Assembly (NCBI RefSeq): GCF_036046055.1 | Contig: NZ_CP107939.1 | Location: 8,122,001 to 8,186,000, forward strand | DNA length: 64,000 nt | Origin: Nocardia sp. NBC_00403 | Lineage (GTDB): Bacteria > Actinomycetota > Actinomycetes > Mycobacteriales > Mycobacteriaceae | Reading direction: 5' to 3' | Part shown: piece by piece, positions 7,341-25,263 of the stretch | Layout: each line of letters opens with the position of its first letter | Numbering within the stretch: the first letter of the stretch is position 1 | Notes under the pieces: generated by a model | Seen by the model: only the letters and a program-made list of their open reading frames with translations | Databases searched by the model: none | Told to the model about the DNA's origin: nothing | Translations under genes and position numbers: made by a program

Positions 7341-7919
7341 CTATTCGAGGATGAGCAGCGCCGATTTCTCCAGGCGGTCGGCTATTTCGGAGTAGGAGGC
7401 ATAACCCATCCCCGCGCGGACAAGAGCGCCCGCGTAGAGGAGTTCCAAGGATTCGACGACGTCCGGGTCGGCGTCGGGGCCGAGGGCGCGCAGTAGGCGT
7501 TTGCGGATTTCGGCGCCGATGCGGGCACGCAAATGCGCGACGTCGGGGTCACGGCCCAACAGCGCGCTGGTGACCGCCCCGGACAGTTCCTGTTCGTCGG
7601 CGACGAGCAGGGCGATATTGCGCAGCTCAGCGAGCACCCGGACCGTGGGGTCCGGGTCCTCGCTGACCGGCGCGGAGCTGGAAACCAAACGCCGCCAGAA
7701 TATCTCGGCGACGAGGTGTTCCTTGGAGGAGAAATAGGTGTATGCCGTGGCGGTGCCGACGCCGGCCGCCGCGGCGACCATGCGGATTGTCATCCCTGCG
7801 AAACCCTCGCGGGCAAGGACTTCCACCGCCGCTCTGGTGAGCTTGTCGACGGTGTCGGCCTGCTTCTCGGTGAGGCGGCGCCGGGTCGCCTCGAGGATGA
7901 TGGACTCGCCTTCGGACAT
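7341..7919 (-). CDS. TetR-family transcriptional regulator, candidate controller of the sterol P450 regulon
   Basis: 192 residues with an N-terminal TetR helix-turn-helix at about 43-62 (MTIRMVAAAAGVGTATAYTY) and a helical ligand-binding C-terminal domain. The gene is the last of the minus-strand run, 11 bases after the KstD-like gene. The palindrome GGACATGTGTCC at 7914-7925 covers its start codon. Near-identical palindromes lie in the aldehyde dehydrogenase/CYP123 and cyp51/mce promoters, so I infer that this protein represses all of them and itself. The ligand may be a sterol or lipid metabolite. From memory, the corresponding M. tuberculosis locus also has a TetR-type gene (Rv0767c) beside Rv0768. 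Confidence 0.88.
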   Translation of the reverse strand: MSEGESIILEATRRRLTEKQADTVDKLTRAAVEVLAREGFAGMTIRMVAAAAGVGTATAYTYFSSKEHLVAEIFWRRLVSSSAPVSEDPDPTVRVLAELRNIALLVADEQELSGAVTSALLGRDPDVAHLRARIGAEIRKRLLRALGPDADPDVVESLELLYAGALVRAGMGYASYSEIADRLEKSALLILE

Positions 7920-7929
7920 GTGTCCAGAT
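7914..7929. promoter_or_regulatory. Candidate TetR operator, copy A (at TetR start codon)
   Basis: GGACATGTGTCCAGAT. The core GGACA-TG-TGTCC is a perfect 5+5 inverted repeat and overlaps the TetR start codon on the minus strand. It matches the copies at 13186, 13371 and 23942. A role in autoregulation is inferred. Confidence 0.5.
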
Positions 7930-7930
7930 C

Positions 7931-9397
7931 CTACTTGGCGGCGGCGAGGCCGGCGCGGCGGCCATAGAAGCTGCCGTCGCCGAGAGACGCGCCACTGACG
8001 TATCCGCCCGCGCAGAGACCCGAGGTGCAGCGTCCCGCGGCGAACAATCCGGCGATCGGCTCGCCCGACACGTGCAGCACCCGGGAGTCGAGGTCGGTGC
8101 GCAGACCGCCGAGTGTGAAGCCCGCGGTGAAACCGCGCATGTCGAAGGCCGCGAGCGGAGCGCCGATCGGCTTCACCCACTCGGGTTTCTTGCCGAGCAA
8201 CGGATCCTTGCCGTCGGCGGCGTGCAGGTTGTACGCGGTGACCGTGCCCTGCAATGTCTGCGTCGGCAGACCCATGTCCGCCTCGAGCTCGGCGACCGTC
8301 TCCGCGGCCCAGGTCGGCGGCTGCCGGAAGAAAGGAGTGGAAGTCTCGGTGGCGAGCGCAGCCTCGAGCGATTCCTCGTCGATGATCAGATACGCCTGAT
8401 TGTCCTGCTGGATGAGCGTGGCCTGGCCGATCCGTCCCGGGTAGGTGTCCTCGGGGATGTAGCGCTGGCCGCGGCCGTTGACCAGGATGCCGCGCGCCAT
8501 CATCTGCGGGTCGCCGAAGAATGCGACCTCGGTGGCGTCCATGTGCGCCAGCTCGGCGCCGAGAGCCTGGGCGAGTCGGATGCCGATGCCGTCGTGCTCC
8601 TCGATCGCGGCGGCGGGCCTGCCGATCAGCCGCGGCGCATAGCCCTCGATCATCTTCTGGTGGTAGGCGAAGCTGCCGGTGGCAAGGACGACACCGCGCT
8701 CGGCCCGGATGGCGATCTGCTTGCCGAACTGGGTGGCCAGCACACCGACGACGCGGTCGGTGTCATCGACGATCAAACGCCGGATCCTGGTGTCGTATTC
8801 GACGCGGACCCCGAGGCCGTCGGCGGTCTCGGCGAGCGGCTTCATCAGCATGTAGCCGCCGCTCTTCTGCCCGATACGCTTATCCGCCATCTGCGGAACA
8901 TGCCCGCGCGGTGCGGGTTTCGCGATCTCGTTGAAAGGCGCGGCATTCTCGCCGCCGGAATACATCAGCCCCTCGTCGTGCGGCGGCTCCCAGCCCGGCT
9001 GACCCCAGAACGCCTCGCGGAACGGGACACCACAGGAGACCAGCCAGTTGTAGTGCTCGACGCTGCCCTGGCAGTAGTCGGCGATCTTGGCCTTGTCGAC
9101 GCCGGGGCCGAGCGCCGCGAGCAGGAACGCCTCCATATTCTCCGGAGTGTCCTCGAAACCGAGTGCCTGCTGCAGCGGGGTGCCGCCACCGAGGTAGATG
9201 AACCCGCCCGCCATGGCGGCCGCGCCGCCCCAGCCGCCGGTGCGTTCCAGGATCAGCACCTCGGCCCCGGCCCGCACGGACTCGATCGCCGCGCATACCC
9301 CCGCAATGCCGTACCCGGCGACGACGACGTCGGCCTCCTTGTCCCACTCGGAGATCGCACTGGCACGCAGTGGCCGAATTGTCGTGGCATCAGACAT
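7931..9397 (-). CDS. FAD-binding dehydrogenase, 3-ketosteroid-delta1-dehydrogenase / fumarate reductase flavoprotein family
   Basis: 488 residues. The N-terminal Rossmann motif VVVAGYGIAGVCAA (Gly28, Gly30, Gly33), with Glu51 at the end of the second strand, binds FAD. The C-terminal motif GLFAAGRCTSG closes the FAD site, as in KstD-like and fumarate-reductase-like flavoproteins. Such enzymes introduce double bonds next to carbonyls, classically in the steroid A ring. True KstD is usually a little longer, so the substrate is not certain. The gene lies in the run with the CMD, HIBADH-like, SDR and aldehyde dehydrogenase genes, after a 153-base gap that may hold its own promoter, and directly precedes the TetR gene. 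Confidence 0.87.
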   Translation of the reverse strand: MSDATTIRPLRASAISEWDKEADVVVAGYGIAGVCAAIESVRAGAEVLILERTGGWGGAAAMAGGFIYLGGGTPLQQALGFEDTPENMEAFLLAALGPGVDKAKIADYCQGSVEHYNWLVSCGVPFREAFWGQPGWEPPHDEGLMYSGGENAAPFNEIAKPAPRGHVPQMADKRIGQKSGGYMLMKPLAETADGLGVRVEYDTRIRRLIVDDTDRVVGVLATQFGKQIAIRAERGVVLATGSFAYHQKMIEGYAPRLIGRPAAAIEEHDGIGIRLAQALGAELAHMDATEVAFFGDPQMMARGILVNGRGQRYIPEDTYPGRIGQATLIQQDNQAYLIIDEESLEAALATETSTPFFRQPPTWAAETVAELEADMGLPTQTLQGTVTAYNLHAADGKDPLLGKKPEWVKPIGAPLAAFDMRGFTAGFTLGGLRTDLDSRVLHVSGEPIAGLFAAGRCTSGLCAGGYVSGASLGDGSFYGRRAGLAAAK

Positions 9398-9550
9398 GTT
9401 CCGTGTTCCTTACTGTTCTGCTCGGTCGGACCGTGATGCGTTGTCGAGCTGTCCCGCTCGCTCACGCGGCAGGCGCCCCGATGGTCCTGTGCTGTCGACT
9501 ACTGTGCCGTTTCGGGCGGCCCGGCGGGTCGAATCGGCAACTCGATCGCC

Positions 9551-10009
9551 CTACTCCGCCGCCGCGTCGGATCGCCCGTCCGCCGCTTCGGACTGCTCCG
9601 CGGCATCCGCCTGTTGTTTACGCGCTGCCTTCTTCTGCTGTCCGACGATGGTCCCCACCAGCAGGTCGAGCTTGGTGCCGTTCGGCCAGCCGACGTAATG
9701 GCAGAGGAACAGTGCGATCTCGTGCAACTGTTCCTCGGTGAGCTCTGCATTGCGCAGCGCCGCGCCGATCTGGATGCCCGCGGTGTCGATTGCGCCCTGG
9801 GCGGTCAGCGCGCCGAGCAGGATCAGTCTCCGGTCGCGCACGGTGAGCGCAGGGCGCGACCAGATATCGGCGAAGAGGTGATCGGCGGTGACGGCGAAGT
9901 GCGCGCCGGGGTAGTCCTGGAACTCGGTGCCGTAGACCTCGGCCATCTTGGCCAGCCCACGCCTACGGACGGACTCGGCCGCCGCGCTGTTCGACGGTTG
10001 ATCGCTCAT
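9551..10009 (-). CDS. Carboxymuconolactone decarboxylase-family protein without CxxC
   Basis: 152 residues, CMD family (YGTEFQDYPGAHF, LTVRDRRLILLGALTAQG, EIALFLCHYVGWPNG). No CxxC pair is present, so this resembles the decarboxylase branch rather than AhpD peroxidases. The C-terminal 30 residues are Ala/Lys/Asp rich. Its start overlaps the stop of the HIBADH-like gene by four bases (ATGA), so the two are translationally coupled. From memory, M. tuberculosis has the same order: Rv0768 (aldehyde dehydrogenase), Rv0769 (SDR), Rv0770 (HIBADH-like), Rv0771 (CMD). The substrate is unknown. Confidence 0.9.
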   Translation of the reverse strand: MSDQPSNSAAAESVRRRGLAKMAEVYGTEFQDYPGAHFAVTADHLFADIWSRPALTVRDRRLILLGALTAQGAIDTAGIQIGAALRNAELTEEQLHEIALFLCHYVGWPNGTKLDLLVGTIVGQQKKAARKQQADAAEQSEAADGRSDAAAE

Positions 10010-10932
10010 CGAGATTCCCTTTCTGATTGGGTAGCGGCAGCGCTGACGCCGAGTCCTGGTCCGAGTCGATCGAGGGCCAGTTCGGCGAGGGGCAGTTCGA
10101 TACCGAGCCGGGAGCCCAATTCGAGGGCGAGGGTGAGGTCCTTTTCGCCGAGATCGCGGACGTGGCCGAGGATCGGCAGCCAGAAATCACCCGGCTCGAT
10201 CGGTGCGGTGCGATCGCGCAGCATGATCGCGCCGGGGCCGCCGGTCACGGCATCGGAATGGCGCACGACCTTGCCGAGTGTGGTGATATCCAGCTCTGCG
10301 GCCTCGGCGAGCCGCTGTGCTTCGGTGGCGGCGGTGAAGGCGACGAAGTGGAGTAAGTTGCGGGCCAATTTCATTCGGGTGCCCGCACCCACCGGGCCCG
10401 CGTGCACGACGAGATCGGCAAAACAGCCGAAGGGGCCACGGACCCGCTGGAATGCCATGTCGCTGCCGCCGACCATGACGGCGAGCCGGCCGCGCTGCGC
10501 ACCGGGCGCACCACCACTCACCGGTGCGTCCACCAACTCGACGCCGCGCTCGGCGCACTGGCTCGCCAGCTCGACCGCGGTCCGATCGCTGATCGTGGAG
10601 TGCACGGCGACCACGGTTCCCGGTTCTGCGGTGCGCAGGATGCCCGCCGGCCCCGCGACCACAGCACGGACCTGCTCGTCGTTCAGCACTGTCACCGAGA
10701 TGACGGCAGCTTGCTGCGCGACCTGTGCCGCGCTGCCTGCCGCTTGCGCCCCCGACTCGAGGAACGGCTGGACCGCGTCCGGCCGCGTGTCACACACCGT
10801 GAGCCCGCCGGGCCACTCCAGCAGCCGCTTCGCCATCGGCGCGCCCATATTGCCGAGACCGATGAAGCCGACCCGGAATTCGGCAGCGGACCCGTTCGCT
10901 GCCTGCTCGGATCGCTCCGCACCCCCGCTCAT
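10006..10932 (-). CDS. 3-hydroxyisobutyrate dehydrogenase-family NAD(P)-dependent oxidoreductase
   Basis: 308 residues. The N-terminal dinucleotide-binding motif is GFIGLGNMGAPMA (about 23-34), the substrate-binding motif is DAPVSGGAPGA (about 135-145), and the catalytic lysine is probably Lys188 in GAGTRMKLARN. Family members oxidise 2- or 3-hydroxy acids with NAD(P). The start at 10932 overlaps the SDR stop, and the gene's stop overlaps the CMD start, each by four bases, so SDR, this gene and CMD are one translationally coupled unit. Rv0770 is the expected M. tuberculosis counterpart. Confidence 0.9.
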   Translation of the reverse strand: MSGGAERSEQAANGSAAEFRVGFIGLGNMGAPMAKRLLEWPGGLTVCDTRPDAVQPFLESGAQAAGSAAQVAQQAAVISVTVLNDEQVRAVVAGPAGILRTAEPGTVVAVHSTISDRTAVELASQCAERGVELVDAPVSGGAPGAQRGRLAVMVGGSDMAFQRVRGPFGCFADLVVHAGPVGAGTRMKLARNLLHFVAFTAATEAQRLAEAAELDITTLGKVVRHSDAVTGGPGAIMLRDRTAPIEPGDFWLPILGHVRDLGEKDLTLALELGSRLGIELPLAELALDRLGPGLGVSAAATQSERESR

Positions 10933-11681
10933 GACCGGAACACTTGTCCGCCGTCGACATTGAAGATCTGGCCGGTCACCCAGCTCGCCTCGTCCGAGAG
11001 CAGGTAGAGACAGGCGCCGACCAGGTCCTGCGGTGTCCCCATCCGTTTGAGCGGCAACCGGTTCACCATGTCGGTGACGATCGCCTCTGGTGTCACCGCC
11101 TTGGTGGCCTCGGTGTCGATCGGTCCGGGCGCGATGGCGTTGATGCGAATCTTGGAGCCGCCCAGCTCGAAGGCCAGCTGCTGGGTGAGACCGTTGACGC
11201 CGACCTTCGCGAGGCCGTAGAAGCTGGAGTATGTCCATGCGGCCGTGGAAGATTGGTTGACGATCGAGCCGCCACCGGCGGCCATCATGGGCTTCCACAC
11301 CGCGCGGGTCATGTTCAGCGCGCCGTCCATGTTCACGCCCATGAACTTCTTGTAGTAGTCCCACGGCACCGTCAACAGCAGATTCAGCTTCATCTCGCCG
11401 TAGATGGCCGCATTGTTGACCAAGTGGTTGATGCCGCCGAACTCGCCGACGGTGAATTCGGCCAGCGCCGTCGCGGATTCGGGTTCGGACACATCGACCT
11501 CACCGAACACCGCGGTACCGCCGTCGGCGACGATCTTCTTCGCGACCGCCTTTCCGGCTGGCACATTACGGTCGGCGACAACGACTTCGGCGCCCTCGGC
11601 GGCCAGCGCCTGCGCATACACCGCGCCGATCCCCTGTGCGGCACCGGTGACGATGACGGATCTTCCCGTGAAACGGGCCAT
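10929..11681 (-). CDS. Short-chain dehydrogenase/reductase
   Basis: 250 residues, classical SDR. The cofactor motif is TGAAQGIG (12-19), followed by NNAA (89-92), catalytic Ser around 144-145, Tyr155 and Lys159 (YGLAK), and a C-terminal end VTGQIFNVDGGQ typical of the family. It would oxidise or reduce an alcohol/ketone with NAD(P). It sits 18 bases after the aldehyde dehydrogenase gene and is coupled to the HIBADH-like gene. The expected counterpart is Rv0769. The natural substrate cannot be read from the sequence, but the setting suggests sterol or lipid-derived intermediates. Confidence 0.92.
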   Translation of the reverse strand: MARFTGRSVIVTGAAQGIGAVYAQALAAEGAEVVVADRNVPAGKAVAKKIVADGGTAVFGEVDVSEPESATALAEFTVGEFGGINHLVNNAAIYGEMKLNLLLTVPWDYYKKFMGVNMDGALNMTRAVWKPMMAAGGGSIVNQSSTAAWTYSSFYGLAKVGVNGLTQQLAFELGGSKIRINAIAPGPIDTEATKAVTPEAIVTDMVNRLPLKRMGTPQDLVGACLYLLSDEASWVTGQIFNVDGGQVFRS

Positions 11682-11699
11682 GAAAGTCAGCTCCTCTAG

Positions 11700-13169
11700 T
11701 CAGGCTTGGTAGGCGATCAGCTTGGTTTCCAGGTATTCCTCGAATCCGGCGATGCCCATCTCCCGGCCGATGCCCGACTGCTTGTACCCGCCGAACGGAG
11801 CGTCCGCGGAGTACCAGATGCCGCCGTTCACGCTCAGCGTCCCGGTGCGAACCCCCTCGGTGACGCGCCGGATCCGGTCCTGGTCGCTCCCCCAGACCGA
11901 ACCCGACAGCCCGTATGGGGAATCGTTGGCGATCCGGATCGCGTCGTCGTCACCGTCGTAGGGGATCACCACCAGCACCGGACCGAAGATCTCCTCGCGG
12001 GCGACCGTCGAGGTATTCGCGATGTCCGCGATCAGGGTCGGCTCGATGTAGAAGCCGCGCTCATGGTTCGCGGGCCGCCCGCCACCGGTGACAATGCGAC
12101 CACCTTCGGCGACGGCGATCTCCAGGTAGCGCTCGACGCGGGCCCGCTGCCGCTGCGAAATCAGCGGGCCGCAGATCGTGCGCGGATCCGCCGGATCACC
12201 GGGCGCGATCCCACCCAATGTGGCCGCGGCGATCTGCACCGCGTCGTCGTAGGACGCACGTGGGACCAGCAGGCGGGTGGTGATGGCACAGCCCTGTCCG
12301 GCGTGCACACACACCGAAAAGGCCGCAACACCAACGGCAGCCGCGATATTCGCGTCGTCGAGCACGATGAACGCCGACTTGCCGCCGAGCTCGAGAAATG
12401 CCTTCTTCAGCGTGGTCGCCGCCCCCGCCATCACCACTTTCCCGGTTTGCGTCGAACCGGTGAAGCTGATCATGTCGACCCGTGGATCGGTGGTCAGTCG
12501 CGCGCCGATCGTGTGGTCGGCGGAGGTGACGATATTGACGACGCCCGGCGGGATGTCGGTGTGCTCGGCGATCACCGCACCGATGGCCGCCGCACACCAT
12601 GGTGTGTCGGGAGCGGGTTTGAGCACCAGCGTGTTTCCGGCCGCGAGCGCCGGTCCGAGTTTCGCGAAATTGATCTGGTGCGGAAAGTTCCACGGGGTGA
12701 TCGCACCGACCACGCCGACCGCCTCTCTGCGTTGCACCCGGCGGGTCTTGATGCCCATCGGCTCTGCCACGCCGAGATCCGTTTCCCAGCTGTATGTTTC
12801 GGCGAGCGACGCGGAGTAGCCCAGGTCGGCGACCGGACCCTCCAACTGCGGCCCTTTGGTCAGCATCGTCGGCGCGCCCGCCTCGGCGACGGTGATCTCC
12901 CGCAGTTCGTCGATGTGGGCTTGTAGCGCGGTGCGCAGCTGTTCGAGGCAGCGTGCGCGGAAGGCGTGATTGCGTGACCAGTCGGTGTCGTCGAACGCGG
13001 TGCGTGCGGCGGCGATGGCGGCGTCCATATCGCCGCCGCCTGCGTCAGCGGCCTGGCCGAGAACTTCCTCGGTCGCGGGGTTCACGGTGTCGAACACGCC
13101 GTCGGCGCCTGCCACCAGCTTGCCGCCGATGAGCAGGCGGGATTCGGCGTTGGGCAGGAGGCTGCTCAT
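11700..13169 (-). CDS. NAD-dependent aldehyde dehydrogenase (AldA/Rv0768-like)
   Basis: 489 residues of the aldehyde dehydrogenase superfamily. The general base is Glu260 (LELGGKS), the nucleophile is Cys294 (HAGQGC), and TPWNFP (159-164) lies at the cofactor site. It oxidises aldehydes to acids. The ATG at 13169 with GGAG upstream was chosen; the frame continues upstream without family similarity and runs into the promoter region. This is the first gene of the minus-strand run, and a candidate TetR palindrome lies 17-32 bases upstream of the start. It diverges from the CYP123-type gene, as Rv0768 does from Rv0766c/Rv0767c by memory. Confidence 0.92.
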   Translation of the reverse strand: MSSLLPNAESRLLIGGKLVAGADGVFDTVNPATEEVLGQAADAGGGDMDAAIAAARTAFDDTDWSRNHAFRARCLEQLRTALQAHIDELREITVAEAGAPTMLTKGPQLEGPVADLGYSASLAETYSWETDLGVAEPMGIKTRRVQRREAVGVVGAITPWNFPHQINFAKLGPALAAGNTLVLKPAPDTPWCAAAIGAVIAEHTDIPPGVVNIVTSADHTIGARLTTDPRVDMISFTGSTQTGKVVMAGAATTLKKAFLELGGKSAFIVLDDANIAAAVGVAAFSVCVHAGQGCAITTRLLVPRASYDDAVQIAAATLGGIAPGDPADPRTICGPLISQRQRARVERYLEIAVAEGGRIVTGGGRPANHERGFYIEPTLIADIANTSTVAREEIFGPVLVVIPYDGDDDAIRIANDSPYGLSGSVWGSDQDRIRRVTEGVRTGTLSVNGGIWYSADAPFGGYKQSGIGREMGIAGFEEYLETKLIAYQA

Positions 13170-13185
13170 GAAGGGCTCCGATACT

Positions 13186-13201
13186 GTCTGGACACGTGTA
13201 C
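13186..13201. promoter_or_regulatory. Candidate TetR operator, copy C (aldehyde dehydrogenase promoter)
   Basis: GTCTGGACACGTGTAC; read on the minus strand it is GTACACGTGTCCAGAC. The core GGACA-CG-TGTAC has one mismatch from a perfect inverted repeat. It lies about 26 bases (centre) upstream of the aldehyde dehydrogenase start, where a bound repressor would block the promoter. Confidence 0.6.
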
Positions 13202-13370
13202 GGAATATAGTCTCGACGCCCGATAAGTCGCAAGAACATGTTTCAGATTTGCCGTCCTTCGGGTAGCGATTCCCGGCCTCGACGGCGATCCGGATATATC
13301 CCGGAAACCACATCACCAACCACGGACAAATACCAAAGAATCGTTGTCGTGAGCATGTCTCAGTGGTACC

Positions 13371-13386
13371 GTCCAGACACATGTCC
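13371..13386. promoter_or_regulatory. Candidate TetR operator, copy B (CYP123 promoter)
   Basis: GTCCAGACACATGTCC; on the minus strand GGACATGTGTCTGGAC. It is centred about 82 bases upstream of the CYP123-type start codon. Together with copy C it brackets the 291-base divergent promoter region. Confidence 0.6.
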
Positions 13387-13460
13387 AGCTATGTGTCTCT
13401 CAATGGTGATGCGACAATTTTCACCGACGAGAACTCGTTATCGAATGTCGGGACGGCGCG

Positions 13461-15704
<2,244 letters not shown>

Positions 15705-15705
<1 letters not shown>

Positions 15706-16252
15706 TGCCAGGTTTCGAACGCAGCGAGCTCGACGAGATGGTCCGGCGCTGGGTGCTGGAGAACCAGCGCTGCGAGGACAAAGGCGATTGGAAGCCGCTC
15801 GCCGAGATGTACACCGAGGACGCCACCTATGGCTGGAACTACGGCCCCACTCAGGAATTCATGGCGGTCGGACGCGAGGAGATCCGGGTGCTCGCCCTCG
15901 GCCAGGAAATGGACGGGCTGGAGGGCTGGTCCTACCCGTATCAGGAGTTCGTGATCGACGAGCGCAGCGGCAGCGTGATCGGCTTCTGGAAACAGGTGGC
16001 CGATGCCAAGCGGCCCGATGGGCGTAACTACAGCCCGGAGGGCATCGGCGGCAGCTGGTTCCGCTACGGCGGCGACTACCAATGGTCCTGGCAGCGTGAC
16101 TTTTTCGACCTCGGCAATGTCTCGCAGTTGTTCTTGGAGATGATCGCAGGCAATGCGCTGTTGCCCGGTATGCAGAAGCGGATTCAGCGATCGATGGCCG
16201 GCAAGCCACTGCCCGGCTGGTACAAAGTCGGCGAAGCGCCGGTTTCCCTGTG

Positions 16253-16256
<4 letters not shown>
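15705..16256 (+). CDS. NTF2/SnoaL-like protein of unknown function in the P450 operon
   Basis: 183 residues. The pattern WVLENQRCEDKGDWKPLAEM followed by YTEDATYGWNYGP is typical of the SnoaL/NTF2-like cone fold, which includes isomerases, dehydratases and ligand-binding proteins. Cysteines are few and aromatic residues many, suggesting a hydrophobic pocket. The ATG overlaps the ferredoxin stop by one base and the stop overlaps the next gene's start, so it belongs to the P450 operon. A role in handling a sterol-like intermediate is inferred only from position. Confidence 0.85.
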
Positions 16257-17689
<1,433 letters not shown>

Positions 17690-17715
17690 CGCGCGCCCCG
17701 AAAGAGTGAATTGCC

Positions 17716-18394
17716 ATGTCCTGCAACTTCGCCGACCTGTTCGAGCACGCCGTCGACGCCATGCCCGACCGGGTCGCGCTGATCGAGGGCGACCGCGTGC
17801 TCACCTTCCGCGAACTCGATGAACAGGCCGATCGACTGGCCGACCACCTCGCCTCGGTGGGCGTCGCCCCCGGCACGCACATCGGCTTTCAGATGCACAA
17901 CGACATCGACACGATGACCACGCTGATCGCCTGCTTCAAGACCCGAGCCGTCCCCATCAATATCAACTACCGCTACGGCGTCGAAGAATTGCGGTACATC
18001 TACGACAGCGTCGACCTGGAGGTGCTGTTCTACCACGCGACGTATGAGCGGGCGGTGCGCACAGCTGCCGCGTCGATGCCGGCGCTGCGGCACCTGATCG
18101 TCGTCGACGACCGAGCGACCGATGGCGGACCCGCAGGCCCATCGACGCCAGGCAAGCAGGGAACCGCATCGTGCGATACGCGATGCAGTGTCGATCACCA
18201 CCAGGCAGGCCGCAGCCGAGACGGTCGATTTCGACGCGCTGGAGCCACGTGCGCAAGCACCTCGCGGGCTAAAAGTTCCGAGGCAGATCTGGATCGCCCC
18301 CGCGATATCGCGAGCGCCCAGCGGGAAGCCCGACTACCGCTGGGCGAAGGAGTACTCGGCGGGTCGCGCGCCGGATCACCAGGCGGGCCTTTGA
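17716..18394 (+). pseudogene. Broken fadD19-like steroid-CoA ligase gene (large internal deletion, frameshifts)
   Basis: The first 135 codons encode a good acyl-CoA ligase N-terminus (FADLFEHAVDAMPDRVALIE, NINYRYGVEELRYIYDSVD) resembling FadD19, which activates cholesterol side chains with CoA. Around base 18135 similarity stops. From about 18196 the C-terminal end reappears in other frames: DFDALE, then VRKHLAG, then KVPRQIW and SGKPDYRWAKE, which keeps the catalytic lysine motif. The ATP-binding and central parts, some 300 residues, are missing, and two frame changes break the tail. The gene cannot make a working ligase. The ATG at 17716 follows AAAGAG. Confidence 0.85.
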
Positions 18395-18482
18395 TGTGGT
18401 CTATCTGCGCGAACAGCCTGGTCACGACAACGAGAACGTGTTCTAATTCGGACGTATCCGCCGTTGTCCTTGGGAGAATCCG

Positions 18483-20078
18483 ATGAGCACAATCGAAACG
18501 ACCACAGAGTCGGCGAGCACCCTGCCCGCCCGGATCACCGAGGCGTTGATCGGCAGGCTGACCGGGATGGTCGCCGCCGACGATGCCGCAGCGCCGTACC
18601 AGATGCTCGAGGTCTACACCGGAGCGGTGGTCGGCGAACTACCGCAGTCGACGCCCGCGGACATCGCCGCCGCCTACGCGACCGCCCGCGCCGCACAGAA
18701 AGAATGGGCCGCTTGGCCGCTGCGGCGCAGACTGCGCGTTTTCGAGCGCGCGCATGAACTGTTGCTGGCCGAGCACGAAACCATCGCCGACCTCATCCAG
18801 ATCGGCTGCGGCAAGACCCGCCGCATGGCCGTCGAGGAATCCTGCGACGTACCGATGGTCATCAGCCACTACCTCAAGACCGCAAAGCGGGTGCTGCGGC
18901 CGGTCCGGCGCGGCGGCCCGATGCCATTGCTGACCGGCTCCACCGAACAACACCGCCCGAAAGGCGTCGTCGCGGTCATCGCGCCGTGGAATTTCCCGTT
19001 CGCGATCGCGCTGTCGGATGCGATGCCCGCGTTGATGGCGGGCAACGGCGTCGTCCTCAAGCCGGACAACAAGACCGCACTGTGCGCGCTGTTCGGAGTG
19101 GAATTGCTCTATCGCGCCGGGCTGCCGCTCGGACTGTTCCAAGTCGTCTGCGGCGAAGGCCCCGAGGTGGGCCCGACGCTGATCGATAACGCCGAGTTCG
19201 TGATGTTCACCGGCTCGACCGCGACCGGTCGGATCGTCGGCGAAGGCGCGGGCCGCAACCTGATCGGTTGCAGCCTGGAACTGGGCGGCAAGAACCCGAT
19301 GATCGTGCTCGACGACGCGAATCTCGACGACGTCATTCCGGGCGCGGCATTCGCGGTGTTCGCGAACTCCGGCCAGGCTTGTATGCACATCGAGCGGATC
19401 TACGTACACGATCGCCACTACGACGAATTCGTGCGCCGATTGGTCACGGCGGCAGAAGAATTGGGTTCGAAGATCGGCGCGGCCTACGACTACACACCGG
19501 AATTCGGCTCGCTGGTGTCGGTCGAGCACCTGAAACGCGTCGCGGCCCATGTGGACGACGCCCGCGCGAAGGGCGCCACGGTGCTGACCGGCGGCAAAGC
19601 GCGCCCGGACATCGGACCCGCCTTCTACGAGCCGACCGTGCTGACCGACGTCACACCCGAGATGACGCACGCGACCATGGAGACCTTCGGCCCGGTGGTC
19701 AGCGTGTACCGGTTCAGCGACGAGCAGGAGGCGATCCGGCTCGCCAACGACACCAACTATGGCCTGAACGCGAGCGTGTGGAGCCGAAACCTGGCCCACG
19801 CCAACCGCATTGCCGATCAGTTGGAAGCCGGCAACATCAATATCAACGACGGCTTCGTGGCCACCTATGCCGCCAAGGCCACACCGTCGGGCGGCGTGAA
19901 GCAGTCCGGCGTCGGCACCCGACACGGTGATCAAGGCCTGCTCAAGTACACCGACACCGTGAACGTCGGCGTCCAGAAGCGTCAGGTGCTCAACGCCCGT
20001 GCGGGCATGCCCTACGAGAAGCAACTGAAGATCACCCTGACGACGCTGCGGCTCATGCGCCGAACCCGGCTGCGCTGA
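18483..20078 (+). CDS. Succinic-semialdehyde-dehydrogenase-type aldehyde dehydrogenase
   Basis: 531 residues, aldehyde dehydrogenase superfamily. APWNFPFA is followed by Glu266 (LELGGKNP) and nucleophile Cys300 (NSGQACMH). The sequence GGVKQSGVGTRHGDQGLLKY near the end and a C-terminal extension of about 35 residues (QLKITLTTLRLMRRTRL) are those of mycobacterial-type succinic semialdehyde dehydrogenases (GabD2-like). It would oxidise a small aldehyde to its acid with NAD(P). It lies between the broken ligase and the CYP125-type gene on the same strand; here the substrate could equally be a lipid-derived aldehyde. Confidence 0.88.
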   Translation: MSTIETTTESASTLPARITEALIGRLTGMVAADDAAAPYQMLEVYTGAVVGELPQSTPADIAAAYATARAAQKEWAAWPLRRRLRVFERAHELLLAEHETIADLIQIGCGKTRRMAVEESCDVPMVISHYLKTAKRVLRPVRRGGPMPLLTGSTEQHRPKGVVAVIAPWNFPFAIALSDAMPALMAGNGVVLKPDNKTALCALFGVELLYRAGLPLGLFQVVCGEGPEVGPTLIDNAEFVMFTGSTATGRIVGEGAGRNLIGCSLELGGKNPMIVLDDANLDDVIPGAAFAVFANSGQACMHIERIYVHDRHYDEFVRRLVTAAEELGSKIGAAYDYTPEFGSLVSVEHLKRVAAHVDDARAKGATVLTGGKARPDIGPAFYEPTVLTDVTPEMTHATMETFGPVVSVYRFSDEQEAIRLANDTNYGLNASVWSRNLAHANRIADQLEAGNININDGFVATYAAKATPSGGVKQSGVGTRHGDQGLLKYTDTVNVGVQKRQVLNARAGMPYEKQLKITLTTLRLMRRTRLR

Positions 20079-20111
20079 GCGCATCTCGTTCTATCCCCCG
20101 AGGAGGCAACC

Positions 20112-21344
20112 ATGACGGCATTGCCGGCAGGCTTCGATTTCACCGACCCGGCGCTGTGGGAAAACCGAAGGCCGGTCGAGGAATTCGCATGGCTGCGCCG
20201 CACCGCGCAGGTGTGGTGGAACGCGCAATCCGACGACACCTCGGGCGGCTTCCGCGACGGCGGGTACTGGGTGGTCAGCAAACTCGACGACGTCAAGGAG
20301 ATCTCGCGGAATCCGGAACTGTTCTCCTCCCAGGAGAAGGGATCCATCATCCGGCTGCCCAATGACACCACTCCGGAGCAGATGGCGCTGACCGGTGCGC
20401 TGCTGGTGAATATGGATCCGCCCAAGCACACCAAGACCCGGCGGGTCGTGTCGAAAGGATTCACCCCGCGTGCGGTGGAGGGTCTGCGGGCGGCGTTGAC
20501 CGAACGCGCCGCCGCCATCGTGCACGCGGCCAAGAAGTCCGGCGGCGGTGATTTCGTCCAGCAGGTTGCCGTCGAACTGCCGTTGCAGGCGATCGCGGAA
20601 CTGCTGGGCGTCCCGGAGACCGATCGGCGCAAGCTCTTCGACTGGACCAATCAGACCCTCAACTACGACGACCCGCAGTACGGCGACACCACCTCGGCCT
20701 CCAGGATGGCCTCGGCCGAACTGCTCGGCTACGCCTGGAACATGGCCGAGCAGCGCCGCGGCTGCCCGGCCGAGGACATCGTCAGCCAACTGGTCAATGC
20801 CGACGTCGACGGTGAGCACCTCGGCTCCGACGAGTTCGGGTTCTTCGTGATCCTGCTCGCGGTGGCGGGGAACGAGACCACCCGCAATGCCATCACCCAT
20901 GGCATGAAGGCGTTCGTGGACAACCCCGAGCAATGGGAGCTCTACCAGCAGCAGCGACCGCGGACCGCGCCCGACGAGATCGTCCGCTGGGCCACCCCCG
21001 TCACGGCCTTCCAGCGCACCGCGACGCAGGACACCGCGCTCGGGGACCGGCAGATCAAGAAGGGACAGCGGCTGGGGCTCTTCTACAGCTCGGCGAACTT
21101 CGACGAAGACGCCTTCGACGACCCCTTCACCTTCGATGTGCTGCGCAACCCGAACCCGCACGTCGGCTTCGGCGGCACCGGTGCGCACTACTGCGTCGGT
21201 GCGAACCTGGCGCGCCTCGAGATCGACCTGATGTTCAACGCCATCGCCGATTTGATGCCCAAGATCACGCAGGTGTCGGATCCGGTACGGTTGCGCTCGG
21301 GGTGGATCAACGGAATCAAGAAGTGGCAGGTGCGATACGAGTGA
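20112..21344 (+). CDS. cyp125: Cytochrome P450 CYP125 type, steroid C26/C27 hydroxylase
   Basis: 410 residues. N-terminus LPAGFDFTDPALWENRRPVE, I-helix AVAGNETTRNAIT, ExxR in DEIVRW, and heme loop GFGGTGAHYCVGANLA with axial Cys361. All follow CYP125A1 of M. tuberculosis closely by memory, including WATPVTAFQRTA and LRSGWINGIKKWQV. CYP125 oxidises the terminal methyl of the cholesterol side chain, opening side-chain degradation. The ATG has GAGGAGG eight bases upstream, and the glutathione peroxidase overlaps its stop by four bases. No KstR-type operator was recognised upstream. Confidence 0.95.
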   Translation: MTALPAGFDFTDPALWENRRPVEEFAWLRRTAQVWWNAQSDDTSGGFRDGGYWVVSKLDDVKEISRNPELFSSQEKGSIIRLPNDTTPEQMALTGALLVNMDPPKHTKTRRVVSKGFTPRAVEGLRAALTERAAAIVHAAKKSGGGDFVQQVAVELPLQAIAELLGVPETDRRKLFDWTNQTLNYDDPQYGDTTSASRMASAELLGYAWNMAEQRRGCPAEDIVSQLVNADVDGEHLGSDEFGFFVILLAVAGNETTRNAITHGMKAFVDNPEQWELYQQQRPRTAPDEIVRWATPVTAFQRTATQDTALGDRQIKKGQRLGLFYSSANFDEDAFDDPFTFDVLRNPNPHVGFGGTGAHYCVGANLARLEIDLMFNAIADLMPKITQVSDPVRLRSGWINGIKKWQVRYE

Positions 21345-21826
21345 GCCTTCGAAATATTCCATTGCGCACGCTGTCCGGCGACGCGACGACCCTGGGCGAG
21401 CTCGCCGGGGACCACGCTGTGCTGCTGGTCAACGTGGCTTCGAAGTGTGGGCTGACGCCGCAGTATTCCGGGCTGGTCGAGCTGCAGAAAGCCTACGGAC
21501 CGCGCGGATTCACCGTGATCGGAGTGCCGAGCAACCAGTTCATGGGTCAGGAACCCGGCACGGCCGAGGAGATCCAGGAATTCTGCTCCACCACCTACGG
21601 TGTGGATTTCCCGCTGCTGGAGAAGACCGACGTCAACGGCGAGGACCGGCACCCGCTCTACAGCGAGCTCGTCGACACCGCGGACGCGGATGGCACCAGC
21701 GGTGACATCCAGTGGAACTTCGAGAAGTTCCTCATCGATCGGGACGGCAAGGTGGTCGGCCGGTTCCGGCCACGGACCGAACCCGACTCCGCGGCAGTCA
21801 TCAACGCCATCGAAGCGGCTCTGTAA
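21341..21826 (+). CDS. Glutathione peroxidase family protein, cysteine type
   Basis: 161 residues. The peroxidatic Cys36 is in NVASKCGLTPQY, the glutamine motif is NQFMGQEPG, and the Trp-Asn pair is in WNFEKFLID. Cys82 in the FCSTTYG motif is the expected resolving cysteine of thioredoxin-dependent members, which fits an organism without glutathione. It reduces peroxides in the cytoplasm. The GTG start at 21341 overlaps the CYP125 stop (GTGA), so it is translationally coupled to the P450. Protection against peroxide from P450 uncoupling is a reasonable inference. Confidence 0.93.
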   Translation: MSLRNIPLRTLSGDATTLGELAGDHAVLLVNVASKCGLTPQYSGLVELQKAYGPRGFTVIGVPSNQFMGQEPGTAEEIQEFCSTTYGVDFPLLEKTDVNGEDRHPLYSELVDTADADGTSGDIQWNFEKFLIDRDGKVVGRFRPRTEPDSAAVINAIEAAL

Positions 21827-21840
21827 ACATCTTTCGGCCG

Positions 21841-21878
21841 AGCCGGAATCGAGGGTGACGCACCGCTCGACTCCGGCT
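21841..21878. terminator. Bidirectional hairpin terminator
   Basis: Arms AGCCGGAATCGAG (21841-21853) and CTCGACTCCGGCT (21866-21878) pair over 13 positions with one mismatch around a 12-base loop. It lies between the convergent glutathione peroxidase and TerD genes. Confidence 0.75.
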
Positions 21879-21887
21879 TCGCTGTGT

Positions 21888-22469
21888 CTATGCCATGGCG
21901 AAGCGCAGCAGGGCCTGCTTGTCACCCTGCTTGATCTGGCCCTTGCGGTTGAGGACTTCCAACTGCCAGCCCGCGCCGGAGCGGAAGGCCCGTGCGACCG
22001 CATTGGCGTTGTCGTTGCCCAGCAGCGACGGCCAGATATCGGCGACCTGTTCGGCGCTGCCGCCGGTCGCGTCGTACACCTTGAACGAAATGTTGTTGGC
22101 CTTCTCGAACGAGCTGCCCTTCTTGAAGGCAGCGGCCACGAACACGATGGCGTCGATGCCGCCGGGCACATCGGCGAAGGTGACATGCACCGATTCGTCG
22201 TCGCCGGAGGCGGCGCCGGTCTGCTCGTCACCGGTGTGCTGGACCGAGCCGTTGCCCATCGGGTCCAGGGAGTCCAGGCCGGCGAAACGCACCGGCTCGG
22301 CGCCTTGCATGAGAATGGCGATCAGATCCAGGTCCACCCCGCGTTTGCGGCGCAGCAGCCCCATCGCACCGCCACTCGTGCCCGCCGACGGATCCCAGCT
22401 CACCCCGACCGTCAGTTTGGTGATGCCGTTGAGATCCGCGGCGCCATCTTCTTTTTTGAGCGTGATCAT
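21888..22469 (-). CDS. TerD-family protein
   Basis: 193 residues from MITLKKEDGAADLNGI. LTVGVSWDPSA, DLDLIAILMQ, VHVTFADVPGGIDAIVFVAA and FEKANNISFKVYDATGG are TerD signatures (calcium-binding acidic sites in the stress-protein/tellurite-resistance family). The function in actinobacteria is not settled; stress response and membrane-associated roles have been proposed. The frame opens 57 bases further upstream, but the chosen ATG aligns with the family start. It is downstream of and on the same strand as cyp51, with a 79-base gap. Confidence 0.88.
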   Translation of the reverse strand: MITLKKEDGAADLNGITKLTVGVSWDPSAGTSGGAMGLLRRKRGVDLDLIAILMQGAEPVRFAGLDSLDPMGNGSVQHTGDEQTGAASGDDESVHVTFADVPGGIDAIVFVAAAFKKGSSFEKANNISFKVYDATGGSAEQVADIWPSLLGNDNANAVARAFRSGAGWQLEVLNRKGQIKQGDKQALLRFAMA

Positions 22470-22548
22470 GCGTTTCACAGTACAAGTGATCCGTATCCCG
22501 ATGCGGCGCAGAATGTTCCTGCTCACACCCGAGCAAGGTGTGCGCCGT

Positions 22549-23904
22549 CTAGGGCTTTTGACGCCTGCGGTAGCGGACGGTGCACGGCTGCTGTAGCTGC
22601 ACCACCATCTTGCTGTGATCGTTGCGGTAGCTGTCGGAGGGCTGGGCCATCTCGAACTCCCAGTCGCGCAACAGGATCGAGAAAATAGCCTTCAGCTGCA
22701 TCAGCGCGAACGCCGCGCCGACACAGCGATGCCGTCCCGCGCCGAACGGAATCCACGTCCAGCGGTTGACGATGTCTGCCTGATTGGGGTCGATATAGCG
22801 GTCCGGATCGAAGTCCTCCGGGTTCGGGAAGTCCTCAGGGATGCGGTTGGAGATGGCGGGAGTGGCGGCGACCAGGTCGCCTTCCGCGATCCGATGCCCG
22901 CAGACCTCGAATTCGCCCTTGGCGACGCGCATCAGGATGATCAGCGGCGGATGCAGTCGCAGTGTCTCCTTCAGCACTGCCTCGAGCTGCGGAATCCGGC
23001 GCAGCGCGGCGAAACTGACTTCCGAACCGTCGGCGTACAGTTCGTCGAGCTCGTCGATAACCCTGGTCAGCAGGTCAGGATGCCGGAGTAGTTCGATCAC
23101 CGTCCAGGCCGCGGTGCCGGAGGTGGTGTGGTGGCCCGCGAACATCATCGAGATGAACATGCCGGTGATCTCGCTGGCGCTGAAGCGCGGATTGCCGTGC
23201 TCGTCGGTGATGGTGATCAGGATGTCCAGCATGTCGCGATCCGTTTTGTGCGCAGGCGGGTTCGCGACGCGGCCGTCCATGATGCCCTGAACCAGGTCGA
23301 CGAGTTCGCGGCGCGCCTCGTCGCGGCGGCGGAAGCTTTCGATCGGCGCGTAGGGGTCCACGTAGGCCAGTGCGTCGGTGCCCCGCTCCAGATCGTGGTA
23401 GAGCCGCGCGAAGCGGTCGTCGAGTTCGTCACGGAATCTGGTCCCGATCAGGCAGGCCGAGGACGTGTAGATGGTCAGTTCGGCAAAGAAATCGAGCAGG
23501 TCGATCTCGCCGGCGTCGCCCCAGCGCGCGAGCATCCGCTCCACCTCGCGCTCGATCGTCGCGGCGTGCCCGCGCATCTGCTCGCCGCGTAGCGCCTGGT
23601 TGTGCAGCATCTCCTTGCGCCGCTCGGGGCTGGCGTCGAAGACAACTCCCGCGCCGAAGATCGGTTTCATGAACGGGTAGGCAGCGCCCTGATCCAGATC
23701 CTCGTCGCCGGAGCGGAAGAAGAATTCGTTGGCCTCGGCGCCCGACAGCATGATGACGCGCCGTCCGGCCAAGTCGAACGACCCGACATCGCCGCATTCG
23801 GCCCGGACTCGGCGCATCAAGGCCAGTGGATCGACCCGAAATTCGTCGAGGTGGCCGTGTTCGTGCTCGCCTCCGGAAACCCGCCGTGGTTTGACCAGGG
23901 TCAT
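22549..23904 (-). CDS. cyp51: Sterol 14-alpha-demethylase CYP51
   Basis: 451 residues. Agreement with M. tuberculosis CYP51 as I remember it is very high: PRRVSGGEHEHGHLDEF, FFFRSGDEDLDQ, the substrate-recognition stretch, MMFAGHHTTSGTA, the ExxR in KETLRLHPP, and heme loop PFGAGRHRCVGAAFA with axial Cys394. It removes the 14-alpha-methyl group of sterols in three oxidations and is the azole target. Bacteria mostly lack full sterol synthesis, so the natural substrate is unclear. Unlike in M. tuberculosis, the gene is separated from cyp123, SDR and ferredoxin by about 7 kb, yet it carries the same palindrome in its promoter. Confidence 0.97.
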   Translation of the reverse strand: MTLVKPRRVSGGEHEHGHLDEFRVDPLALMRRVRAECGDVGSFDLAGRRVIMLSGAEANEFFFRSGDEDLDQGAAYPFMKPIFGAGVVFDASPERRKEMLHNQALRGEQMRGHAATIEREVERMLARWGDAGEIDLLDFFAELTIYTSSACLIGTRFRDELDDRFARLYHDLERGTDALAYVDPYAPIESFRRRDEARRELVDLVQGIMDGRVANPPAHKTDRDMLDILITITDEHGNPRFSASEITGMFISMMFAGHHTTSGTAAWTVIELLRHPDLLTRVIDELDELYADGSEVSFAALRRIPQLEAVLKETLRLHPPLIILMRVAKGEFEVCGHRIAEGDLVAATPAISNRIPEDFPNPEDFDPDRYIDPNQADIVNRWTWIPFGAGRHRCVGAAFALMQLKAIFSILLRDWEFEMAQPSDSYRNDHSKMVVQLQQPCTVRYRRRQKP

Positions 23905-23918
23905 TGGAAATCCTCCCG

Positions 23919-23957
23919 GTATAGCTGTCCGGACGTACGATGGACACCTGTCTGGAC
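23919..23957. promoter_or_regulatory. Candidate TetR operator, copy E plus weaker second copy (cyp51/mce divergent promoter)
   Basis: GGACACCTGTCTGGAC at 23942-23957 matches the copies at 7914, 13186 and 13371. A weaker copy GTATAGCTGTCCGGAC lies 23 bases away at 23919-23934. Both sit 15-53 bases upstream of the cyp51 start and within the 135-base region shared with the Mce gene. Confidence 0.55.
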
Positions 23958-24039
23958 AGTACTACGACACGTAAGGCCGGGCAAGCAATCCGGCACCGCG
24001 AGCGGGGCAACGACGCGCCCCTCTCCAGGCAGGTGAGTA

Positions 24040-25263
24040 ATGCATTCGAAGCAACAGACCGATGGGCCGCGATTGGTAATCGCCCGAAGCATCTGGCGGG
24101 CATTACGCTGGAAAATTGCCGGTGCTGCCCTGATTCTCTCGATGGCCATCGTCATTGCCACTGTGCTGTCGATGTATTCGGGCAGGTACATCTCGACCGC
24201 GTCGGTCACCGTCGACGCGCCGCGCGCCGGACTGGTGCTCGACCCAGATGCCAGGGTGAAGTACCGCGGCATCGAGATCGGCCGGGTGGCGGCGGTCGCC
24301 CGAGCGGAGGACCGGGAGCGGCTGCGGCTGGATCTCGACCCCGAGTTACTGCGGCTCGTCCCGGACAACGCGAGGGTGGACATCCACTCCACCACCATCT
24401 TCGGTGCGAAGAATGTGAATTTCCTTGTTCCGGAACACCCTTCGGGCCGTCCACTGCGACCCGGCGCGCAGGTGAGGGCCGAGGCGGTCACTGTCGAGTT
24501 CAATTCGCTGTTCGACCATCTCGCCGACCTCCTTGCGAAGGTCGAGCCCGGCAAGCTCAACATCGCCATGAATGCACTGAGCACCGCATTGCAGGGGCGC
24601 GGCGACAAGCTCGGCGAGACACTGGCGCACACGGATTCCTATCTGCGCGAGATCAATCCGAGCCTGCCCGCGCTGCGACGGGAGCTGGCCGCCACGGCCG
24701 ATGTCACCGGCCTGTACGCCGACACCGTCGGAGATCTGTTGCGCACGGCGGAAAATGCCACCACCACGAGTGCGACGATCACCGACCGACAGTCGGATCT
24801 CGACGCAGTACTGCTGAACCTCGTAGGAGTCGCAGACACCACAGGTAGTGTGCTCCGGCAGAGCGAACCGTCGTCGATTGCGTCGCTCCAGCTCCTCCGT
24901 CCGACGACCGCGTTGCTGTATGCCTATGCGCCAGGGCTGGATTGCGTCATCAACGCACTCGGCAAACTCATGCCCCTCGCCGAGGAGATCTTCGGCGGCA
25001 GATACCCGGGCGCGTACTTCAACTCGAACTTCATGTACGGCGCAGAGCCGTATCAGTACCCGGACGACCTACCCAAGGTAAATGCCACCGGCGGCCCGCA
25101 CTGCGAAGGCGTGAACGACAGAGTGCCCGGCAGCCACTCCGACTACGTCGTCACCGACACCGGCGAAGGTCGGCCGTTCATACCGTCGACCACTGTGCAC
25201 CCGAACAGCCCACCGGTGTTCGAGCTGCTGTTCGCGGGACTACCGGGGATGGGTGGGCGGTAG
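24040..25263 (+). CDS. Orphan MceA-like protein
   Basis: 407 residues. An N-terminal membrane anchor (about 29-48) is followed by the Mce domain, with DARVKYRGIEIGRV and FGAKNVNFL, then the helical MceA-type region (LNIAMNALSTALQGRGDKLG) and a cysteine-containing tail (GLDCVINALGK, GGPHCEGVN). Mce proteins form a tube that carries lipids or sterols from the outer envelope to a YrbE permease; Mce4 imports cholesterol. No yrbE or other mce genes are present, so this copy must use components encoded elsewhere or be a relic. It diverges from cyp51 and shares its operator region. Confidence 0.9.
   Translation: MHSKQQTDGPRLVIARSIWRALRWKIAGAALILSMAIVIATVLSMYSGRYISTASVTVDAPRAGLVLDPDARVKYRGIEIGRVAAVARAEDRERLRLDLDPELLRLVPDNARVDIHSTTIFGAKNVNFLVPEHPSGRPLRPGAQVRAEAVTVEFNSLFDHLADLLAKVEPGKLNIAMNALSTALQGRGDKLGETLAHTDSYLREINPSLPALRRELAATADVTGLYADTVGDLLRTAENATTTSATITDRQSDLDAVLLNLVGVADTTGSVLRQSEPSSIASLQLLRPTTALLYAYAPGLDCVINALGKLMPLAEEIFGGRYPGAYFNSNFMYGAEPYQYPDDLPKVNATGGPHCEGVNDRVPGSHSDYVVTDTGEGRPFIPSTTVHPNSPPVFELLFAGLPGMGGR

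Follow-up and report, generated by a model that had tools for sequence, protein, structure and literature searches.

The window considered here is a stretch of 64,000 nucleotides (G000:C1:8122001-8186000) of the genome of Nocardia sp. NBC_00403, which consists of one contig of 8.73 Mb, and the system in question is a set of oxidoreductase genes that share a palindrome at their promoters with the gene of a TetR-family regulator (Table 1). An aldehyde dehydrogenase gene heads a same-strand run in which tetR is the last gene. The divergent run, starting with the gene of a CYP123-type cytochrome P450 (cyp123), keeps genes for a short-chain dehydrogenase/reductase (SDR), a ferredoxin and an NTF2-like protein, whereas cyp51 lies about 7 kb outside it with an operator of its own. 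The name CYP123 rests on the initial annotation and on gene order, with no subfamily model behind it, and the identity of CYP51 is certain from its sequence. The palindrome is very probably the operator recognised by the product of tetR (7341-7919), which is predicted to bind it, to repress four promoters and to be released by a ligand. The initial annotation had linked the tetR, cyp123, aldehyde dehydrogenase and cyp51 promoters into one sterol-oxidation regulon; the regulon itself is supported, and its gene order is corrected in that tetR ends the aldehyde dehydrogenase operon.

Table 1. Genes, predicted operators and other features of the locus (positions within the window)
Feature	Position	Strand	Basis or remark
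TetR-family regulator, 192 aa	7341..7919	-	TetR_N PF00440; ATG 7917-7919 inside own operator
Operator 1 (TetR)	7910..7929	-	centred on TetR start codon; matrix 27.8 bits
FAD-binding oxidoreductase, PRK07121 subfamily	7931..9397	-	NF005512 929.7 bits, cutoff 812; end 11 bases ahead of TetR
Carboxymuconolactone decarboxylase-like (CMD) protein	9551..10009	-	PF02627 36.8 bits
Beta-hydroxyacid dehydrogenase, 6PGDH/HIBADH type; predicted start	10006..10929	-	PF03446 and PF14833
SDR oxidoreductase	10929..11681	-	NF005853 423 bits, cutoff 303
Aldehyde dehydrogenase, Rv0768 family	11700..13169	-	TIGR04284 894.5 bits, above cutoff 775
Operator 2 (aldehyde dehydrogenase promoter)	13186..13205	-	20.4 bits; -10 TATATT 13204-13209, -35 TTGCGA 13228-13233
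KstR-like box TGAAACATGTTCTT	13232..13245	-	adjoins -35 of aldehyde dehydrogenase promoter
Operator 3 (cyp123 promoter)	13371..13390	+	23.5 bits; -35 TTGTCG 13344-13349, -10 TACCGT 13367-13372
Cytochrome P450, CYP123-type	13461..14666	+	P450 structure matches; divergent from Rv0768-type gene
SDR, Rv0765c-like by position	14666..15484	+	NF005854 428.7 bits, cutoff 260
Small ferredoxin, 74 aa, CYP51-type by position	15481..15705	+	open frame; CQGHAVC...CP motif read by eye
NTF2/SnoaL-like protein, 180 aa, candidate 8,14-sterol reductase	15714..16256	+	SnoaL_4 21.1 bits, below cutoff 24
CYP51, sterol 14-alpha-demethylase	22549..23904	-	805 bits to M. tuberculosis CYP51 1e9x, residues 4-448
Third GTCYRGAC unit GTCCGGAC downstream of operator 4	23927..23934	-	counterpart at +23 in some cyp51 promoters
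Operator 4 (cyp51 promoter)	23938..23957	-	12.0 bits; -35 TTGCCC 23979-23984, -10 TACTGT 23956-23961
Single MCE-family protein, Mce4_CUP1 domain	24040..25263	+	PF11887 209.8 bits; divergent from cyp51

The four 16-base sequences singled out by the initial annotation are all present at the positions and on the strands it gave, and the full operator spans about 20 bases with mirror symmetry (RTCYRGACANNTGTCYRGAY). Three of the four sites are intergenic, and the copy at the TetR start overlaps coding sequence. Their strength was judged with an independent matrix, 20 bases long and symmetric, built from 37 distinct TetR-promoter sites of other genomes and none from the window (31 from the loci of relatives described below and six from other genomes; the site of locus L016 lies upstream of the TetR start rather than on it). 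Scanned with this matrix, the window yields the four sites as ranks one to four, with 11.05 bits for the fifth place, and the best window score of 500 column-permuted matrices has a mean of 11.0 and a maximum of 21.6. The first three operators are thus strong, whereas the cyp51 copy is not significant by sequence alone; indeed, it is one of 15 two-mismatch places in the genome. The 12-base core GGACAYSTGTCY with at most one mismatch occurs seven times in the window (2.67 expected), which is not significant for the core alone, since six of 100 shuffles reach seven. As an exact match, the core is found at nine places in the genome, three of them inside the window, against one match of a control pattern. 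The longer pattern GKACAYNTGTCYRGAY matches the four sites and nothing else genome-wide, with no control match, a result that is circular because the pattern was drawn from the same four sites. Clear sites in this genome are confined to this locus, and a large genome-wide regulon in this strain was rejected because looser matches show no excess.

According to the initial annotation, a motif as common in random DNA, or one that relatives do not conserve, would speak against the regulon. The 20-base operator stands out from random DNA, whereas the 12-base core has six further places in the genome; in relatives, the 20-base operator recurs at the starts of the TetR, aldehyde dehydrogenase, CYP123 and cyp51 genes. 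Relatives were sampled as 80 loci around TetR relatives, 78 from Nocardia and two from Rhodococcus. In all 80, a site matching 13 or more of the 18 consensus positions was found near the TetR start; when 240-base stretches were drawn at random from these loci, 491 of 4000 reached this level, real sites being included in the draws. Gene starts with room in the locus were surveyed for matrix hits of at least 12 bits between -300 and +30, second hits included, with genes identified by tblastn at 50% identity or more (CYP51 at any identity). Sites were found at 87 of 87 TetR, 42 of 42 aldehyde dehydrogenase, 33 of 36 CYP123 (usually at -78 to -82) and 17 of 21 CYP51 starts. The MCE starts carry a site in seven of eight cases, mostly a weak one (12.7 bits). 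Other genes of the same loci show low counts: CMD 12/54, SDR765 6/36, SDR769 4/49, FAD 3/45, beta-hydroxyacid dehydrogenase 3/51, a second aldehyde dehydrogenase 2/10 and SnoaL 1/26. Nine of the 12 CMD genes with a site come after a site pair of the aldehyde dehydrogenase/cyp123 kind. The same survey gave no site at 27 starts of g16250 and at 18 AMP-binding starts.

CYP51 was found in 92 of 98 Nocardia genomes, and 97 of 98 cyp51 places, each with 400 bases upstream, entered a genus-wide survey after one fragment without its N-terminus had been dropped. A site lies upstream of 95 of these 97 genes, whereas 200 permuted matrices find 0.28 on average and never more than 3. The best site stands 120-160 bases upstream in 12 of the 97 places, and the operator centre of the window lies about 43 bases ahead of the cyp51 start. 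The cyp51 operator in the window is taken as real, though weak, because of this conservation and its position. Two Rhodococcus loci (L117, L123) have the genes for TetR, CYP123, SDR, CYP51 and NTF2-like in this order; TetR itself has a site there, and none was found at cyp51, 15-33 bases after the SDR gene, where the best scores are -1.6 and 2.8 bits. We infer that this Rhodococcus order is the ancestral one. Besides the arrangement of the window, cyp51 is divergent from the aldehyde dehydrogenase gene in seven Nocardia loci, all with a site, and follows TetR in eight, seven of which have a site (the exception is L109, a 54% match). An MCE relative stands near cyp51 in 18 of 30 loci, and in the window the divergent MCE gene may share operator 4. 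That a displaced cyp51 is kept co-regulated, as the initial annotation had proposed, is therefore well supported by the site at 95 of 97 Nocardia cyp51 genes and its absence at in-operon Rhodococcus cyp51. The locus would be a clean case of an operon falling apart while a copied operator keeps the parts in step.

A weaker copy reported near 23919 is not a full operator, as it scores -1.3 bits, and was rejected as a second one; its 8-base unit GTCCGGAC does recur, with a unit of this type at the +23 offset in 30% of 96 cyp51 promoters. Overlapping dyads 12 bases apart were also seen on the TetR-oriented strand of L016 (1438-1469), L017 (1461-1492) and L023 (185-216), where three GTCYRGAC-like units in a row suggest two TetR dimers side by side.

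The operators hold a common register relative to predicted promoter elements. For this count, the best cyp51 site within 90 bases and of at least 8 bits was used (96 of 97 kept), and CYP123 and aldehyde dehydrogenase sites below 12 bits were dropped. Of 77 distinct TetR promoters, 69 have a TANNNT hexamer that begins four bases before the operator (eight more have it at -3), as do all 32 cyp123, 41 of 42 aldehyde dehydrogenase and all 96 cyp51 promoters. The final T of the hexamer comes partly from the operator itself, the TA at -4 being the independent part; when TetR is preceded by the FAD gene, the arrangement of the window, this TA belongs to the FAD-gene stop codon. A TTG also appears in the consensus lines, separated by a spacer of 17 or 18 bases. 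In the window, the two elements (Table 1) are separated by 17 bases at the cyp123 and cyp51 promoters and by 18 at the aldehyde dehydrogenase promoter, while the TetR promoter has a -10-like TAGGAT at 7928-7933 and no visible TTG -35. Outside Nocardia, the TA at -4 is found at the TetR promoter in 10 of 11 loci that group with the window TetR, two of the 10 being from Rhodococcus (the exception is L023), and five rows of the other TetR group show a different register. The operator covers the predicted start point and overlaps the -10 element, and its position is therefore of the repressor type. At TetR, where the start codon is the operator centre, the transcript would therefore be leaderless. 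Judged from the sequence, the register shared by four promoter types is a repressor architecture.

The regulator belongs to the TetR family (PF00440, 50.5 bits, cutoff 24), and its predicted model is all-helical with a predicted local distance difference test (pLDDT) score of 85. Among the top 20 matches of this model in the PDB, 17 are KstR and three a Rhodococcus TetR, with template modelling (TM) scores of about 0.7-0.8 and 19-23% identity; by their PDB titles, the KstR structures include complexes with DNA operators and with sterol-coenzyme A (CoA) esters. KstR as the best fold match hints at a sterol-like ligand, without amounting to proof. The protein is itself not KstR, as the KstR model NF033703 gives 32.2 bits against a cutoff of 280. 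It resembles KstR (Rv3574 family) in its TetR fold but differs in operator sequence, and the genome encodes a separate KstR at 1732527-1733072 (335 bits).

The motif and this kind of TetR go together. In a set of 150 genomes from the order, RGACANNTGTCYRGAC occurs in 16 of the 19 with such a TetR (at E 1e-30) and in nine of the 131 lacking one (Fisher p 1.2e-12), against two of 19 and 22 of 131 for a reversed control pattern. The excess is partly built in, because the pattern was chosen after sites had been seen in many TetR-bearing genomes; the low count in the 131 is not. At this threshold, the TetR-bearing set mixes both of the TetR groups described below, and in G043, G052, G102, G109 and G123 even the closest member has no more than about 51% identity. 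Within Nocardia, 96 of 98 genomes have the TetR; CYP51 is missing from both genomes without this TetR and from four that have it (p 0.003). These co-occurrence p values overstate the evidence because genomes share ancestry. The genome of the window has a single protein of this kind at E 1e-30. At E 1e-40, many Nocardia genomes (G021, G152 and others) hold two or more such TetRs and that of the window one.

In a related genus (g2), probably Mycobacterium because named relatives at similar identity belong there, the TetR beside the aldehyde dehydrogenase and cyp123 genes is 46-49% identical to the window TetR (13 loci), and a closer relative (65-75%, eight loci) sits away from cyp123. In a tree of 51 rows, the window TetR falls in a 36-row group (support 100/99) apart from the 13 cyp123-side rows of g2 (94/92); the tree is midpoint-rooted and carries a long-branch warning, and Rv0767c is not among its rows. 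Simple orthology with Rv0767c was set aside after these identities and the tree. The TetR predicted to run the cyp51 genes in Nocardia and Rhodococcus may thus be something other than a strict orthologue of its mycobacterial counterpart, through replacement of one paralogue by the other or through loss of one of them. Both groups have GGACANNTGTCC operators. In both loci inspected among these eight of g2, a second site lies 3.8-3.9 kb from the own-start site, beside a glycosyltransferase-like gene (sites at 4123 and 7964 in L272, at 8874 and 4956 in L273). A P450 gene follows TetR in L272, and L273 has glycosyltransferase- and methyltransferase-like genes, all with scores below curated cutoffs; a second regulon using the same operator is possible there.

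The KstR consensus, which we take to be TnnAACnnGTTnnA with AACNNGTT as its operator core, also bears on the locus. AACNNGTT was found in 34 of 44 aldehyde dehydrogenase upstream regions and in none of 97 cyp51 regions, against a background of 2.1% of random 100-base stretches. With a KstR-like box in its aldehyde dehydrogenase promoter, the gene set may not stand apart from the genes under KstR, and double control of this promoter by KstR and TetR is possible.

The idea has a precedent: a phytosterol-induced, autoregulated palindromic motif was proposed in 2019 for an Rv0767c-type TetR (PMC6593523). In Mycobacterium sp. VKM Ac-1817D, the available text of that paper describes this motif X at 14 operons, of which 12 responded to phytosterol with more than 3-fold induction, and assigns it to the TetR G155_05115, with autoregulation proposed from a copy near its own start codon. 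Motif X is given there as distinct from the KstR and KstR2 motifs, although two cases lie together with KstR sites. The window likewise has a palindrome at the TetR start codon and at P450, aldehyde dehydrogenase and SDR operons. The text on motif X names neither cyp51 nor cyp123 and gives the motif letters in a figure only. The systems differ in extent, with 14 operons in Mycobacterium and clear sites in one locus here, and the window TetR groups apart from the g2 TetR beside cyp123. For Rv0767c itself, the parts available of two further sources report a motif with an e-value of 1.2E-14 in a less significant class (PMC4482099) and an enrichment of GAC and GTC at chromatin immunoprecipitation (ChIP) sites (PMC10312376), which fits GGACA..TGTCC.

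The ten corresponding M. tuberculosis genes, Rv0762c-Rv0771, appear together with fold changes of 0.14-0.25 in the section on para-hydroxybenzaldehyde of PMC10470581. As far as the accessible text goes, they include cyp51, a ferredoxin, oxidoreductases, cyp123, Rv0767c, aldA and CMD, as here; the difference is that they form one contiguous run of locus numbers, whereas the Nocardia cyp51 has left the cyp123 operon. An NTF2-superfamily 8,14-sterol reductase (8,14-Bsr) is described in the accessible part of PMC13277303 as often clustered with CYP51 and a ferredoxin, the M. tuberculosis 8,14-sterol reductase being active too, less efficiently. The window likewise has CYP51, a ferredoxin and an NTF2-like gene in one neighbourhood, a likeness of position. 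The 180-aa NTF2-like protein had no PDB sequence match at E 0.01, and its position beside the ferredoxin fits. Listings from searches of the open-access literature showed nothing on this operator in Nocardia or on its promoter register. What is newly added here is the Nocardia version, the register and the operator copies on dispersed operon pieces, together with the KstR-like box and the tree that places the TetR apart from the g2 cyp123-side TetR.

The operator, its conservation, the promoter register and the link to TetR are well supported by sequence statistics; TetR binding, repression, a ligand, a sterol response and the direction of rearrangement are inferred. According to the proposed mechanism, a ligand-free TetR dimer, perhaps two at cyp51, would bind the 20-base operator, which takes in the predicted start and the 3' end of the -10 element, and thereby block RNA polymerase. 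Four promoters would be controlled in this way, namely those of the aldehyde dehydrogenase operon, the internal tetR start, the cyp123-SDR-ferredoxin-NTF2 operon and cyp51, and perhaps that of the divergent MCE gene. TetR would be released by a lipid, for which a sterol or an acyl-CoA derived from one is the likeliest candidate. The ancestral tetR-cyp123-SDR-cyp51-NTF2 operon, still present in two Rhodococcus loci, would have been broken up in Nocardia, the pieces turned separate transcription units carrying their own operator copies. A sterol function of the regulon is likely. Far more tentatively, the regulon could be a complete methylsterol-stripping module whose operator was kept in register after the break-up. 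CYP51, the ferredoxin and the NTF2-like reductase would then remove the 14-alpha-methyl group, while the CYP123-type P450, the aldehyde dehydrogenase and the SDR/beta-hydroxyacid dehydrogenase would oxidise and decarboxylate the C-4 methyls. TetR would sense a methylated sterol or its CoA ester, the products would go to the KstR pathway, to which the KstR-like box would tie the module, and every detached piece would have taken the operator along or acquired it again, each time in the same register. Actinobacterial CYP51 structures have been solved, and the ligand freeing TetR would tell which compound the enzymes serve; with operator, repressor and gene set defined, the cellular job of CYP51 becomes testable.

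As a claim of one TetR regulon, the initial annotation is upheld by the shared motif, its conservation and its tracking of the TetR kind, and is qualified by the possible KstR overlap and by a TetR that is maybe not the plain counterpart of that in g2. Several observations weigh against the regulon or its sterol role. The cyp51 copy is weak by sequence, the copy at the TetR start overlaps coding sequence and the stop codon of the upstream gene, and looser sites show no genome-wide excess (169 against 229 for the control). Four of the 21 cyp51 starts have no 12-bit site (the two in-operon genes, L109 with its 54% match, and L100 with 11.5 bits), the exact motif is absent from three TetR-bearing genomes (G052, G072, G123), and related genomes are non-independent observations. 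The KstR fold match is only a hint because TetR folds are alike, and the ligand need not be a sterol, since the closer g2 TetR sits away from cyp123 and, in L272, adjoins glycosyltransferase and P450 genes. In M. smegmatis and R. jostii RHA1, most genes putatively under motif X showed no induction, according to the available text of PMC6593523, and the accessible part of PMC10470581 names the ArsR-type Rv0576 as putative regulator of Rv0762c-Rv0771.

The same TetR and operators might serve a non-sterol pathway, with another lipid, a terpenoid or an aldehyde as its subject and CYP51 acting on a non-sterol or occasional substrate, a reading that is possible but on balance unlikely. The CYP123-type, SDR, aldehyde dehydrogenase, CMD-like and beta-hydroxyacid dehydrogenase families are broad enough for it, and the gene company of the closer g2 TetR in L272 and L273 points the same way. 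However, CYP51 and the NTF2-like neighbour of the ferredoxin fit C-14 demethylation as described in the available text of PMC13277303, Rhodococcus CYP51 demethylates lanosterol (according to the part seen of the review PMC11279926), and operons with motif X were induced by phytosterol in Mycobacterium (PMC6593523, available text). The KstR-like box, the Mce4_CUP1 partner and the KstR fold match likewise argue for the sterol reading. That a different regulator, such as a TetR paralogue, KstR or an ArsR-type protein, binds the sites in place of the neighbouring TetR is improbable. Two TetR subfamilies share the GGACANNTGTCC core, the genome has its own KstR gene, and Rv0576 is the regulator named for the M. 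tuberculosis locus in the portion available of PMC10470581; yet the genome holds one protein of this TetR kind, the site stands at the tetR start in 80 of 80 loci, motif and TetR co-occur, and the KstR box is a different sequence. Activation by TetR at these promoters is more improbable still, since operators that reach over the predicted start and into the -10-like element are placed as for a repressor. Chance similarity or coding constraint hardly deserves credence: the one-mismatch core is matched by some shuffles and the cyp51 copy alone stands at the level of the best chance match, but chance was rejected by the sites at gene starts, the cyp51 survey of the genus and the promoter register, with no site at in-operon cyp51, and coding constraint because the upstream operator half outside the TetR coding sequence is also conserved and the three other sites are intergenic.

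Some observations at the margin of the repressor-operator system concern further genes. A strong site lies upstream of an SDR-like gene, as read by eye, in L084 (11547), L092 (11527) and L105 (2896), the protein having 288 aa in L084 and L092; in these two loci, the site is also upstream of a divergent gene of 161 aa, and these genes are likely further regulon members. A site about 105 bases upstream of a 419-aa protein, regulator-like by eye, was seen in L048 (15800), L069 (15566) and L074 (15656), the hosts being Nocardia sp. CY41, N. niwae and N. abscessus. In the window, the protein encoded at 16250-17689 has no Pfam match and contains a long poly-glycine stretch, and in many relatives it is a neighbour of the NTF2-like gene. 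The AMP-binding (acyl-CoA synthetase-like) gene at 17716-18486 looks degenerate, with a family match that ends after about 135 residues and a stretch resembling the end of the enzyme, read by eye, in another frame.

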